From an uncultured Polaribacter sp. (GTDB lineage Bacteria; Bacteroidota; Bacteroidia; Flavobacteriales; Flavobacteriaceae): DNA of 64,000 nucleotides. Shown here one piece after another: positions 5,270 through 34,990 of this stretch. The stretch's first letter is position 1. Each line of letters starts with the position of its first letter. The stretch lies in assembly GCA_943787375.1 (NCBI GenBank), contig CALSME010000006.1, positions 1-64,000 of the forward strand, written 5' to 3'. The position numbers were made by a program, and so were the translations under genes. The notes under the pieces are model-generated. The model did no database searches and was not told the DNA's origin. It saw only the letters and a list, made by a program, of their open reading frames with translations.

Positions 5270-6106
5270 TTAAACTTTTTCAACACCTGTTGGCTTCCGA
5301 TATCCTTGAAATGGTTGTTTTAATAATTCTATTAAAGAGGAGTTTTTAGCTTCATCTGGAAATGTATCAACTCCATACACAATTTTATCTCGATCCAATT
5401 CGATATAGGTCCCAAAAATACGATCCCAAAGAGAAAAGATGTTTCCATAGTTTGCATCTGTATAAGGCAACTTGTGGTGATGGTGTATTTTGTGCATGTC
5501 GGGTGAAATAATAACATAGCTCAGTAATTTATCTACTTTTCGAGAGATTTTAATATTTGCATGGATAAATTGACTTGTTATCAAAGATAAAGATTGATAA
5601 ATAAATACAATTGCTATTGGGGCTCCTACGATAAAAACGCCAAATAATGTGAAGGTAAAACGGATGATACTTTCCAGTGGATGATGTCTGTTTGAAGTTG
5701 TAATGTCTACTTTATGATCTGAATGATGAACTAAGTGAACCATCCATAATGGTTTTACTTTGTGTTCTGTGAAATGTGCTAAATAGGCACCAAAGAAATC
5801 TAATAATAATACGCCCAAACTGGCATACAACCAAACCGGCATTTCTGGCAACCAATTAATAATTCCAAAATCATTCACTTGAACCCAATCTGCAGTGTTC
5901 AGTAGCAAAAAAGCCAACGTAAAATTGATAAGGATGGTTGTTCCTGTAAAAAATAAGTTGGGCCCTGCATGTTTCCATTTCTTATAATTGAATTGAAAGA
6001 GTGGAATTCCGCTTTCTAAAAGCCAGAAAAATGTAATTCCGCCCACTAAGAATAGACTTCTATGTGAGGATGGTATAGTTTCAAAATATACGAGTAAAGT
6101 ATCCAA
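5270..6106 (-). CDS. Sterol desaturase / fatty acid hydroxylase family membrane protein
   Basis: An integral-membrane di-iron oxygenase of the fatty-acid hydroxylase superfamily. The substrate is unknown, most likely a lipid. The histidine clusters that bind iron are present in order: HFTEH, HLVHHSDH followed by NRHH, and HKIHHHH. There are about four membrane spans between residues 15 and 185. At 278 aa the length is usual for the bacterial subfamily. The start is a TTG at 6106 (MDTLLVYFETIPSSHRS); no ATG exists before the first histidine-rich region, so TTG is the best choice. It appears monocistronic. Confidence 0.85.
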   Translation of the reverse strand: MDTLLVYFETIPSSHRSLFLVGGITFFWLLESGIPLFQFNYKKWKHAGPNLFFTGTTILINFTLAFLLLNTADWVQVNDFGIINWLPEMPVWLYASLGVLLLDFFGAYLAHFTEHKVKPLWMVHLVHHSDHKVDITTSNRHHPLESIIRFTFTLFGVFIVGAPIAIVFIYQSLSLITSQFIHANIKISRKVDKLLSYVIISPDMHKIHHHHKLPYTDANYGNIFSLWDRIFGTYIELDRDKIVYGVDTFPDEAKNSSLIELLKQPFQGYRKPTGVEKV

Positions 6107-6203
6107 GGTGATTTATTTTCCACTAAATTAAGAAAAATATATTAAGGGTGGACTTTTGCTGCTGTCGTGCTACAAACAAATTGCACATGAAAACGAGAAT
6201 AAA

Positions 6204-6728
6204 TTATCTTCGTGTCTTTTTGGTATTGTATTCGTATGGGATTTTTACTTTTAATGCTTCTACGATATTGTAAGCGGCAGGACAAACGGTTGTATTCTCA
6301 ATTGTTAAATCGGTAATTTGAATAAACTTTTTTCGGTTGGTATGTGGGTATTCTGAACAGGCTTTTGGTCTTACATCGTAGATGAAACAAGTATTGTCAG
6401 ATTCGTCAAAAAAGGAGCAGGGTGCTGTTTTTAAGACCATGAAATCGTCAGAATCTCGTTCTAAATATTTACTTTGAAAGTCTGCAACTTTCATTTTTAA
6501 ATGTTTAGAAATACGCGCTGTATCGGAATCTGTAAAAATAGGTGAGGTTGTTTTACAGCAATTACCACAGGTTAGACAGTCTGTTTTTTTAAACTCTTTA
6601 TCATGCAATTCTTGCATTACATAATCTAAATTCTTAGGGGTTCTCTTTCTTAAGTTAACAAAATATTTTTTGTTTTCTTTTCTAGCTTCTTCTGCTAATT
6701 TCGGGAGTTCTTCTAAGCGCTTTTGCAT
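6204..6728 (-). CDS. YkgJ family cysteine-cluster protein
   Basis: A cytoplasmic protein of the YkgJ/UPF0153 family, thought to bind zinc or an iron-sulfur cluster through conserved cysteines; its role is not known. Cysteines occur as DCLTCGNCC, then APCSFFDESDNTCFIYDVRPKACSEYP, then a last one near VCPAA. The start is the ATG at 6728 (MQKRLEELPKLAEEARKENKK, 174 aa). The frame stays open to 6824, but a perfect -7 box at 6800-6807 sits inside that extension, so the longer version would start upstream of its own promoter. It is divergent from argS. Confidence 0.82.
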   Translation of the reverse strand: MQKRLEELPKLAEEARKENKKYFVNLRKRTPKNLDYVMQELHDKEFKKTDCLTCGNCCKTTSPIFTDSDTARISKHLKMKVADFQSKYLERDSDDFMVLKTAPCSFFDESDNTCFIYDVRPKACSEYPHTNRKKFIQITDLTIENTTVCPAAYNIVEALKVKIPYEYNTKKTRR

Positions 6729-6799
6729 GTAAAGTATATTTGAAATCACCGCAATACGGGCGAAATAGTAGCTCGTGTTTTGGAAGTCTGATTGTACCA

Positions 6800-32430: not shown

Positions 32431-32479
32431 TTGACTGGCAGTCAAGAGGTCGTGGGTTCGAGCCCCATCTTCTCCACAA
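32431..32479 (+). repeat. Orphan 3' half of tRNA-Ala(GGC), direct repeat copy 1
   Basis: These 49 bases match 34942-34990 of the intact tRNA-Ala with one difference (C at 32463, T at 34974). They cover the anticodon stem-loop, T arm, acceptor 3' strand and the bases past the discriminator. The 5' half (acceptor 5' strand and D arm) is absent; unrelated sequence precedes 32431. The orientation is the same as the intact gene. It is probably an integration or duplication scar. Confidence 0.85.
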
Positions 32480-32499
32480 GGGTTAATTCCAATACAATC

Positions 32500-32531
32500 A
32501 AAGAGTTATATTAATTTATGGCTCTTTTTTT
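32500..32531 (+). terminator. Terminator kept behind the tRNA-Ala fragment
   Basis: A 10-bp stem (32500-32509 with 32518-32527, two G-U pairs), an 8-nt loop and a T run. A tRNA 3' half that still has its own terminator suggests a formerly complete tRNA gene or a right-hand attachment site. Confidence 0.65.
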
Positions 32532-32722
32532 ATGCCTAATTTTTAGTAAAAGAGCGCAGTAGGGGGCGCATATTGGGTGTATTTTCTATTTTTCAAATTT
32601 GAAATGTCGGTTTTAATCGAAAAGATATTTCACTATTGGACTTTCTTTAGAATTTGATTAATTGACATACTACGATTGAAATAAATTAGATTTACCGATA
32701 AGTTTAGTTGATAGGAATTAAT

Positions 32723-32730
32723 TATATTTG
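32723..32730 (+). promoter_or_regulatory. -7 element for the DUF1566-type gene
   Basis: TATATTTG, a perfect -7 match 14 bp before the ATG, which predicts a very short leader. Confidence 0.5.
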
Positions 32731-32744
32731 AAAAAAACACACTA

Positions 32745-33398
32745 ATGAAACAAATTTTCACACTTTTAGCGGCGGTATTACTAACTGCAACAACGTATGC
32801 CCAAGTGGGTGTAGGTACAGCAACTCCAGACGCTTCTGCGGCATTAGATATTACCTCTACCACAAAGGGGTTATTAATACCAAGGATGACAGCAGCCCAG
32901 CGTGATGCAATTAGTTCTCCAGCAATTGGATTAATGATATGCCAAACAGATGGTACAGCAGGTTTTTACTATTACAATGGTAGTGGTTGGGCTGAAGTAG
33001 CTGCTACTTCCAAAACCTACTCTGTAAACACTTTTTATGCAGAATTAGGAGGTTACGTTATCCAAATTAGTCCTAATTTCAAACACGGTTTAGTGGTTGC
33101 AATGCAAGACCAAGGAATTTCAACCTGGTATGAAGCTAATGACTTATTGAGCAATCCCTCTAATCACGATGAAGACGGTAAGGAATTTTCAGATTGGCGG
33201 TTACCTACCAAAAGAGAATTAAATCTTATGTATGTTGTTTATAATAATGGAAATGCAGCTTCTTTAAACGCGAATGACTACTGGAGTTCTACGGAGAGCG
33301 GTACCAATGGCGCGTGGGCTCAGATTTTCTACAATGGTAGTCAGGCCAACGGCAGTAAGGACGGCACGACCAGTGTGCGTGCTGTTCGGGCTTTTTAG
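32745..33398 (+). CDS. Secreted DUF1566/C-type-lectin-like protein with DGR-type variable C-terminus
   Basis: A 217-aa exported protein. The signal peptide ends TTYAQ (residue 20). Residues 21-80 ([31 protein letters not shown]) are the usual stalk start of flavobacterial surface proteins. Residues ~95-217 form a DUF1566/Lcl-like fold: [20 protein letters not shown] and a terminal VRAVRAF. The last 40 codons have features of a DGR variable region: positions 185, 186, 189, 192, 194, 196, 199, 201, 203, 204, 206, 207, 209 and 210 all use codons ending in C or T, so each could come from AAC or AAT by changes at A only. G+C is 67 of 117 bases in 33279-33395. No reverse transcriptase is nearby. 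Confidence 0.8.
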
Positions 33399-33451
33399 TT
33401 ATTTAATTATTTATTAATTTAAATAGATTAACACCCATTTTAAAACACTTT

Positions 33452-33485
33452 AAACCCTTACTATTAATTTAGTAGGGGTTTTATA
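33452..33485. terminator. Terminator after the DUF1566-type gene
   Basis: A 12-bp stem (33452-33463 with 33470-33481, one G-T pair) with a 6-nt loop and T-rich tail. It overlaps the stop codon of the convergent recombinase remnant. Confidence 0.65.
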
Positions 33486-33708
33486 TTTTTATTTGACCAT
33501 CTCTAATTAGCTTCTTTACTTTCTTGACTGTACCCTCCGATGTTTTGGATAATAATGCAGTTCTTTTAATGCTCTCCTTTTGTTTAAGATGTTTAAGAAT
33601 GGCTTGAGTTGATGACTTATTAATGAATGTATCTATACTCTCGGAAGTTCCCTTTTGCCTACCAGTATAAAGACCTTTTGCTTTCCTTTCACCTATCCTT
33701 ACTACTAC
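33481..33708 (-). pseudogene. Serine recombinase (resolvase/invertase), C-terminal remnant
   Basis: Translation of this frame gives about 75 residues that read as the end of a serine site-specific recombinase: ERKAKGLYTGRQKGTSES (the E-x-A-K-x2-G-x-x-x-G-R linker after the catalytic domain), then a helix-turn-helix-like segment, TALLSKTSEGTVKKVKKLI. The catalytic N-terminal domain with its serine is missing; the frame meets a stop (33727-33729) just upstream and no ATG fits. It is therefore a 5'-truncated relic. It lies convergent to the DUF1566-type gene in the tRNA-flanked islet. Confidence 0.72.
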
Positions 33709-33763
33709 GCAATGGCGATATTCATTTTACGTTAAATCTGTATTTTCTGAATAGATTTAAACT

Positions 33764-33925
33764 TTATTTTTCATCTCGGAGTTTTTTTACATTGTAGTAA
33801 ATCGCTGCAATAAACGATATTCCAATAATAATGTATTGCGCCCAACGAAAACTACCGTCTTTATCAAAATATTGAATAATTAATGTAATTGTCAAAAGGA
33901 CGTATATGATGATTATTTTGTTCAT
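33764..33925 (-). CDS. Small two-helix membrane protein
   Basis: A 53-aa open frame with ATG at 33925 that starts MNKIIIIYVLLTITLIIQYF, then a charged turn (DKDGSFRW), a second helix (YIIIGISFIAAIYY) and a basic end (NVKKLRDEK). The two hydrophobic helices with a charged loop and positive C-terminus are what a small inner-membrane protein would look like. I do not recognise a family. It lies inside the islet, just downstream of the lipoprotein with the broken frame. Confidence 0.5.
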   Translation of the reverse strand: MNKIIIIYVLLTITLIIQYFDKDGSFRWAQYIIIGISFIAAIYYNVKKLRDEK

Positions 33926-33934
33926 TATATATAT

Positions 33935-34150
33935 TTAATTAATACAATCTTCATAGGCAATAGCAGCATCATCGCAACACTTTACCATCATAGCAGTAGC
34001 CCCAGCATATCCGACTATCGTGGTTATTCCAAAACTTATAAAACCACAAACTGTAACAAGTACTAAAGAGGCAGCGTAATTTTCTCCACAATTTTCAATA
34101 GCGTTATCAAGAGCACTTATACAAGACCTATCAGTAGATTTTTGTATTTC
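33935..34150 (-). other. Out-of-frame Cys-rich continuation of the lipoprotein gene
   Basis: Open in the frame one base off from the lipoprotein frame. It encodes about 70 residues with six cysteines and a hydrophobic middle, ending AAIAYEDCIN. There is no start codon of its own in a sensible place, so it is best read as the original 3' end of the same gene. Confidence 0.5.
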
Positions 34151-34578
34151 TCTTTTTTTTGTTGTTGTTTTCTGATTTCAGTTATTAAAACTTCACTTAC
34201 TTCAGTTTTATCCATTAATTTATCCGCTTTTATTGATGATAAATAACTGTTTAAATTGTTACTGATGTCTTCAGAAACTGTAAGTATTTTATTGATATCT
34301 GTAAAATTATTATTTATTAGAAACTTTTTGAAATTTTCTTTGTTAGTATAAAATTGAGGGAACTCTTTTGATAAGTCAACTGTTGGATGTTTTTGATTTA
34401 AATAAATTTTTTGAAGTTGTTTCGATAAAATAATATGCTTTGTTATTGTTAACTCTAAAGGTACATTATTTTTATTTTCTGTGATAATTAAGTCACCTTG
34501 AGTGCAAGATGTAAATAATACTAACATCGCTAATATTAAAGATAAATAGGGTTTTCTAAAGATGTTTAATAAATTCAT
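34117..34578 (-). CDS. Lipoprotein with frame break at an A8 tract (possible phase-variable or decayed gene)
   Basis: The visible frame encodes 153 aa: a lipoprotein signal (LAMLVLFTSCTQ) and a mostly helical, Lys- and Asn-rich domain. Near the end the coding strand has eight A in a row (34153-34160), and the frame then stops after LLIGLV. With nine A the frame would continue to a stop at 33935, giving about 214 aa. The added tail is quite unlike chance sequence: an amphipathic or membrane segment (LVLVTVCGFISFGITTIVGYAGATAMM) framed by cysteines in DRSCIS, ENCGEN, KCCDD and EDCIN. I do not recognise the family. Slippage, phase variation, a true mutation or a sequencing error are all possible. 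Confidence 0.55.
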   Translation of the reverse strand: MNLLNIFRKPYLSLILAMLVLFTSCTQGDLIITENKNNVPLELTITKHIILSKQLQKIYLNQKHPTVDLSKEFPQFYTNKENFKKFLINNNFTDINKILTVSEDISNNLNSYLSSIKADKLMDKTEVSEVLITEIRKQQQKKEKYKNLLIGLV

Positions 34579-34636
34579 AACGTTTATAATTAAATATTAA
34601 ATTTTTATAAACTTACATCAACTTATTGGATAATTT

Positions 34637-34849
34637 TCATATCAGTAAACAAGTGGGAGCTATAGGGAATAAGTGGGAAGATATAATAAATAAGTGGTTT
34701 TTTATCCTGAATACCGCTTCGTTATAGCCTCTAAACTTAGCGGAACCTGAAACAGGAATAGAGGTCTCAAAAGGGATCACTTTGCGCGACTGATCGTATC
34801 TATGGGCACCATCATTATGAAACCACTTTACCTGATGGGTTTCAATAAC
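34637..34849 (-). pseudogene. Unidentified decayed ORF next to tRNA-Ala
   Basis: An open stretch of about 70 codons without a start codon, reading THQVKWFHNDGAHRYDQ, then SRKVIPFETSIPVSGSAKF, then RGYNEAVFRIK. Its codon choice and base composition in 34710-34850 look richer in G+C than the flanks. A stop codon closes it upstream (towards 34860). I do not recognise the protein; it may be the end of a mobile-element gene cut off next to the tRNA. Confidence 0.35.
34651..34700 (-). repeat. Three direct repeats of CCCACTTRTT
   Basis: On the minus strand the 10-mer occurs as CCCACTTGTT, CCCACTTATT and ACCACTTATT, spaced 20 and 21 bp apart. Two-turn spacing suggests protein-binding sites. They fall inside the 3' end of the decayed ORF. 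Confidence 0.4.
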
Positions 34850-34895
34850 GCTATTTTATGGAGATTTAATTGATATATGGTATTCATTTATTGTC

Positions 34896-34903
34896 TATTT
34901 TAG
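34896..34903 (+). promoter_or_regulatory. Weak -7 element for tRNA-Ala
   Basis: TATTTTAG, two mismatches to TAnnTTTG, 10 bp before the tRNA. Confidence 0.3.
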
Positions 34904-34913
34904 CCAAATAATA

Positions 34914-34987
34914 GGGGATGTAGCTCAGTTGGCTAGAGCGCTTGACTGGCAGTCAAGAGGTCGTGGGTTCGAGTCCCATCTTCTCCA
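34914..34987 (+). tRNA. tRNA-Ala (anticodon GGC)
   Basis: It folds as a standard cloverleaf: acceptor GGGGATG / CTTCTCC with the G3:T70 wobble pair that marks alanine tRNAs (one T-T mismatch), anticodon stem CTTGA/TCAAG with loop CTGGCAG, so anticodon GGC, and T arm GTGGG/CCCAT with loop TTCGAGT. CCA is not encoded (ACAA follows). A 3' half copy lies at 32431-32479. Its own terminator follows. Confidence 0.95.
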
Positions 34988-34990
34988 CAA
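34942..34990 (+). repeat. Direct repeat copy 2 (3' half of intact tRNA-Ala)
   Basis: 48 of 49 bases are identical to 32431-32479. The two copies bracket an islet of about 2.4 kb. Confidence 0.85.

Follow-up and report, generated by a model that had tools for sequence, protein, structure and literature searches.

A very probable diversity-generating retroelement target with no adjoining reverse transcriptase gene in an uncultured Polaribacter

Diversity-generating retroelements (DGRs) with DUF1566 targets, targets remote from the retroelement, and targets in genomes without a reverse transcriptase (RT) have all been described in print (PMC4159848, PMC7517822, PMC4891356). DUF1566 is given as the commonest Pfam domain among putative DGR targets (PMC4159848), and C-type-lectin folds have been reported for DUF1566 domains (PMC6642488). 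Orphan targets in Treponema denticola, as presented in PMC4891356, have A-biased variable repeats (VRs) in strains without RT and template repeat (TR), and these RT-less targets are read there as leftovers. The locus described here resembles them in that respect but belongs to a different phylum, and the T. denticola targets are of the FGE-sulfatase type. The remote variable proteins of cyanobacteria, as set out in PMC7517822, are VR paralogues away from the DGR, and all3226 has no nearby RT; these proteins also come from another phylum and are mostly cytosolic. A literature search, with subscription papers largely outside its reach, returned no paper on the Flavobacteriaceae DGR group considered here.

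How does our locus compare with these systems? We analyzed 64,000 nt of DNA from an uncultured Polaribacter sp. (positions 1 to 64,000 of contig CALSME010000006.1, hereafter the window). An earlier note, made from the raw sequence, had placed a DGR target gene at 32745..33398 (+ strand), with its RT elsewhere or lost. The gene lies where it was placed, and we hold with high confidence that its 3′ end is the VR of a DGR. It encodes 217 aa, with an Lcl_C domain (PF07603, formerly DUF1566) at residues 123-215 (Pfam, E 8.2e-12) and an N-terminal secretion signal that was judged by eye rather than with a prediction tool. By sequence, then, the gene has a C-type-lectin-like domain with the VR at its C-terminus. 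The protein is probably secreted and adhesin-like, and its likely role would be that of a surface-binding protein with a diversified, ligand-binding face. An AlphaFold2 model of the whole chain had a mean pLDDT of 47.7, too low for the variable residues to be located on it. Among solved structures, the closest match is to the C-terminal domain of Lcl, an adhesin of Legionella (8Q4E, E 5.4e-29). A DGR is known in Legionella. The Lcl_C domain of Lcl (PDB 8Q4E/8QK8) is homologous to that of the window target, which is unlike Lcl in that Lcl has a collagen-like stalk; the term “diversity-generating” is absent from the main text of the Lcl report (PMC11162425).

The target gene is upstream of a tRNA-Ala and a gene that we take, from its sequence, to be gltD; the name coaX, used below, is likewise our assignment. 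No Avd, TR, or RT adjoins the target gene. A 49-nt copy of the 3′ part of tRNA-Ala (32431..32479, +) marks the left edge of a 2.5-kb segment, and the right-hand copy (34942-34990) is the 3′ part of the intact tRNA-Ala (ggc) at 34914..34988 (+). These repeats (32431-34990) enclose a small lipoprotein-like ORF in addition to the target gene. The truncated tRNA-Ala copy is upstream of the intact tRNA, an arrangement not produced by simple integration. A terminator-like inverted repeat, seen by eye, lies 3′ of the VR (33455..33478, strand not assigned).

The VR itself covers the last 39 codons (33279..33395, +; residues 179-217), as delimited by comparison with the TRs of four relatives (G064, G375, FRAM18, and Z_MB122). 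Against the consensus of these four templates, which come from relatives and not from the window's own genome, the VR is changed at 22 of 46 A positions and at 0 of 71 others. Against the G064 template alone, the counts over residues 179-217 are 22/46 A and 1/71 non-A mismatches (Fisher p = 4e-10), the single non-A mismatch being a C in the G064 template that the other three templates lack. Beginning the comparison five bases further upstream (122 bases) gives 22/48 A and 2/74 non-A (p = 4.5e-9); the extra non-A difference is in codon 178, which we take to be outside the VR. Thus, the window VR differs from template almost only at template A, as expected of a DGR product, and the lack of non-A drift (0/71) implies recent writing or a young VR. 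The last 21 nt of the VR (33375..33395, +), GTGCGTGCTGTTCGGGCTTTT, are constant and match the 3′ end of the G064 TR at 21/21 positions; we call this end IMH-like, presuming an analogy with BPP-1.

The codons that the earlier note had singled out fared well in this comparison. All fourteen (residues 185, 186, 189, 192, 194, 196, 199, 201, 203, 204, 206, 207, 209, and 210) have the sequence given and, set against the consensus of the relatives' templates, are altered at A alone, and two more codons, 187 (ACC) and 208 (ACG), are likewise A-derived, making 16 altered codons. The template Asn expected at all fourteen is found except at 186 (Asp, GAT) and 192 (Lys, AAA). A G+C-rich VR in an AT-rich gene was confirmed, at 55.6% for 33279-33395 rather than 57%, vs 39.5% in the rest of the gene (34.6% in the window). 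The framework codons of the VR are constant at third positions; the statement that they end differently from the variable ones was partly right, TTC and CGT also being pyrimidine-ended.

Homologous proteins vary far more at the listed codons than elsewhere, which was the behavior the earlier note had proposed looking for. A search of ~5.8 billion proteins gave 3033 matches, and the best 120 were taken; the alignment holds the window protein (P0001) and 112 of these, 113 proteins in all, leaving out eight (the window's own P0002, and P0047, P0078, P0090, P0094, P0102, P0104, and P0121). Among these 113 proteins, from the best 120 of 3033 matches, mean entropy is 2.94 bits at the 19 template-A codons, 0.29 bits at the 20 other VR codons, and 0.41 bits over the 176 body columns. 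The 14 most variable columns in the same set are all template-A codons, 13 of them on the list of fourteen. Extending to the 19 most variable columns adds a point that runs against the DGR reading: 17 are template-A codons, and the other two, 125 and 178, are not. Eleven gap-free pairs have identical 176-residue bodies, and 137 of their 144 VR differences (residues 177-217) fall in template-A codons, although the pairs are not independent, as two triples supply six of them. Of the 25 closest pairs listed, 6 (body identity 99.4%) have one and the same VR, which also runs against the DGR reading. All of these homologues were considered here apart from their genomic context, so they speak to variation in nature and not to activity in this strain.

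The window's own genome assembly (10 contigs, 79% complete) has a second VR. DNA matches to the window VR number two, the VR itself and C7:6660-6784. Compared with the consensus template, the second VR (C7:6660-6781) has 22/46 A and 4/71 non-A changes. Over aligned codons, the body of its gene is no more than 69.2% identical to that of the window gene. The second target (6023-6784 of the same contig, 253 aa) is similar to the first in its N-terminus and VR frame and different in the middle. Neither the RVT_1 profile nor the G064 RT found an RT in this 79% complete assembly, and a template search gave nothing above background except the two VRs. No Avd was seen in the fetched pieces of this genome, the part that was searched, and the assembly yielded no coaX. 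With only 79% of the genome represented, loss of the RT and TR is indistinguishable from their being unassembled.

The closest complete counterparts are in relatives. An RT search of 146 genomes of the genus led to a locus in G064 (record CAJWAC010000084.1), an uncultured Polaribacter sp. of the same genus, with two matches to the window VR and a full cassette. The order is a target gene with a VR at its end (the start of the gene is off the contig), Avd, TR, and RT. The Avd (414-773) matches PF22296 bAvd at 60.4 bits (cut-off 40), the AAC-rich TR is at 892-1013, and the RT, which has a YVDD motif, starts with ATG at 1069, stops at 2301, and matches PF00078 RVT_1 at 66 bits (cut-off 29.6). In NCBIfam, no model exceeded its cut-off for either protein, the Avd reaching 61.7 of 80 bits for DivGenRetAVD and the RT 95 of 300 bits for its best match, a group II intron RT. 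The proposal of a DGR target is thereby borne out in relatives, which have an Avd, an xxDD RT, and a template whose A-rich codons are where they were predicted. The core is also intact in G375, with RT, Avd, and TR 89%, 92%, and 97% identical to those of G064. Both cassettes have the TR type and Lcl_C target family of the window, but they hold Avd, TR, and RT beside the target, and in the window the target is alone. The G064 target is 77% identical to the window's over residues 103-217, VR included, and its IMH-like 3′ end is the same; two bases distinguish the VR/TR end of G375 from that of the window. G375 has three more VRs on a contig other than that of the core, and relative to their own TR these have A changes at 14/47, 25/47, and 23/47 positions and non-A changes at 0, 5, and 4 of 70. 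From its sequence, the first of them looks freshly written in trans.

A CCGC-N4-GCGG hairpin follows 18 of the 45 distinct VR/TR-like ends scanned (template ends are among the 45). The scan found none within 90 nt downstream of the window VR. The hairpin appears non-essential in these DGRs, because the freshly written-looking VR of G375, on its separate contig, is also without it.

A similar DGR is found on a contig classed as viral (L116, IMGVR_UViG_2582580686), which was picked up with the 21-base pattern and has the same 21-nt VR end as the window, a template, and a target. Its RT and Avd are 57% and 61% identical to those of G064, and its target protein is different. A phage- or plasmid-borne source did not emerge: among the RT matches listed (8 of 103 for phage, 8 of 97 for plasmids), the best are 44% and 35% identical, respectively. 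A scan of viral contigs for exact short peptides found no close RT relative, and it missed the 57% relative on L116 as well.

VR genes frequently persist in relatives that have no working core. A TR/VR match at E <= 1e-6 is found in 16 of 166 genomes of the genus (8 of the 128 of good quality). The G064 RT has 12 matches at E <= 1e-5 in the 166 genomes, six of them over long stretches: G064 itself (100%) and G172, G066, G178, G156, and G059 (47-54%), with a stop interrupting that of G059. Only three of the 16 TR/VR-matching genomes (G064, G172, and G178) have a substantial relative of the G064 RT; two more of the 16, G138 and G161, have RVT_1 matches other than these. In a sample of the family, 9 of 397 genomes have a template match. 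RVT_1 was tested in 14 genomes, most of them with a template match, giving 5 matches, 4 of which reach the cut-off, and among these 14 only G375 has an intact RT of the G064 type beside the TR.

Several of these loci are visibly broken. In G023 (OX044355.1, 98% complete) there are three VRs, a full-length homologue of the window protein (83% identical), and what is left of an Avd, interrupted by a stop. No RT was found in this genome, which thus gives no sign of active machinery near the window lineage. The deletion in G023 begins at Avd codon 53 and extends past the RT. The same junction is present at six loci, in G023, Z_MB122, G311, G502, G140, and G093, with at most 2 substitutions in 31 bases, and these genomes span two genera. 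In Z_MB122 (CALSOT010000006.1), one target has an Avd matching up to codon 53 and no adjoining TR or RT, and at a second locus, target, Avd, and TR are accompanied by an RT that by eye ends after ~15 codons, for which the search gave no RT match. FRAM18_bin205 (CAJIZG010000003.1) retains target, Avd, and TR, and its RT is cut at ~143 aa. The FRAM18 template (L119 8951-9067) and VR share changed A positions (AAT to TTT), which looks like an alteration of the template itself. G311 and G502 have VRs that are near-identical by eye, RVT_1 matched in neither genome, and the target gene of G502 is itself broken. A coaX-like gene adjoins the core or remnant in G064, Z_MB122 locus 1, Winogradskyella AH-135-C11, G140, and G093, with a tRNA-Phe between it and the core in G064; none was found in the sequence retrieved around the core or remnant of G375, G311, G502, and Z_MB122 locus 2.

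Further observations concern the surroundings of such loci. A 429-aa ORF that by eye is a tyrosine recombinase appears to have the same sequence in two genera (L075 10527-11816, L150 8443-9732), and its position beside a broken DGR remnant at tRNA-Phe-like ends suggests a mobile island. In Winogradskyella AH-135-C11 (L121 10165-10470), repeat units of ~54 bases, seen by eye, separate the VR from the Avd remnant. Five near-identical 119-aa ORFs are arranged in tandem, 391 bases apart, at L148 2080-4003.

Remote and RT-less targets are known; less ordinary is a single deletion junction in genomes of two genera with differing VRs. The six junction loci give 15 pairs, six of which, those among G023, Z_MB122, G502, and G140, can be compared in register (G502 only through three bases missing inside its VR). 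These six differ at 21-29 of 46 template-A positions and 1-7 of 71 others, with remnants 86-97% identical; for G023 and Z_MB122, the counts are 27/46 and 1/71, with a linked remnant 93% identical. Ungapped counts for the rest are meaningless, because VR lengths differ by at least one codon, and they were dropped (G311 and G093 here; both G311 VRs, Winogradskyella L121, and G023_Ala from the template comparison). One junction with differing VRs leaves open continued rewriting in trans; the differences could also come from recombination between the VR and the scar or from old alleles.

What process accounts for the window VR? An AAC-rich template RNA would be reverse-transcribed with random changes at A, the mutated cDNA would replace the VR by mutagenic retrohoming, and the outcome would be new residues on the Lcl_C domain. 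The window copy, next to tRNA-Ala and with no Avd, TR, or RT alongside, would have been a remote target written in trans. This account draws on the template match, the A-only changes, the second VR, population variation at the same codons, and the cores in relatives. Ordinary positive selection on a binding surface would require no retroelement, and the Lcl_C of Legionella Lcl does bind glycosaminoglycans (PMC11162425). However, it offers no place for templates, Avd, and RT in relatives or for framework codons constant at third positions, and the A-only pattern leads us to reject it as having practically no chance of being correct. Recombination or gene conversion between VR genes, following writing elsewhere, could in principle supply the diversity; the targets are mosaics that share N-termini and VRs and differ in the middle, and there are several VR genes per genome. 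By eye, however, the window VR matches none of the other VRs compared with it, each of which has its own set of A changes, and we regard this origin as improbable.

With a DGR as the preferred source of the VR, points can be made for an activity that is past and for one that may continue. The core may have been lost from the lineage, leaving the window VR as an ordinary fixed allele, a reading to which we give a marginally better than even chance. The RT and TR missing from the assembly, the shared Avd-to-RT deletion of G023 and the other five genomes, the cut RTs of FRAM18 and Z_MB122 locus 2, and the scarcity of RT relatives among TR/VR-matching genomes all point this way, but the assembly is incomplete, and a VR free of non-A drift looks recent. 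That same absence of drift is consistent with an RT core in the unassembled fifth of the genome that still rewrites the window VR in trans, as are the public homologues with identical bodies and different VRs. The missing coaX-like gene, a neighbor of the core or remnant in five fetched loci, is a weak hint in the same direction, weak because four other loci show none there. Set against continued activity are the rarity of an intact core this close (RT at least 89% identical in G064 and G375 only) and the missing downstream hairpin, and we judge it somewhat less than an even bet. It is possible, if rather unlikely, that core-less targets behave as satellites, carried by tRNA-linked islands from one marine Flavobacteriaceae genome to another and occasionally rewritten in trans by a co-resident, related DGR.

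What are the implications of this locus? A DGR target can be recognized from one raw sequence without its enzyme. In a single bacterial family, the loci described here pair intact cores with several stages of core loss and with targets that persist. It can therefore be tested whether, after loss of the RT, a diversified adhesin is frozen as a chosen variant or is kept as a substrate for the RT of another element.
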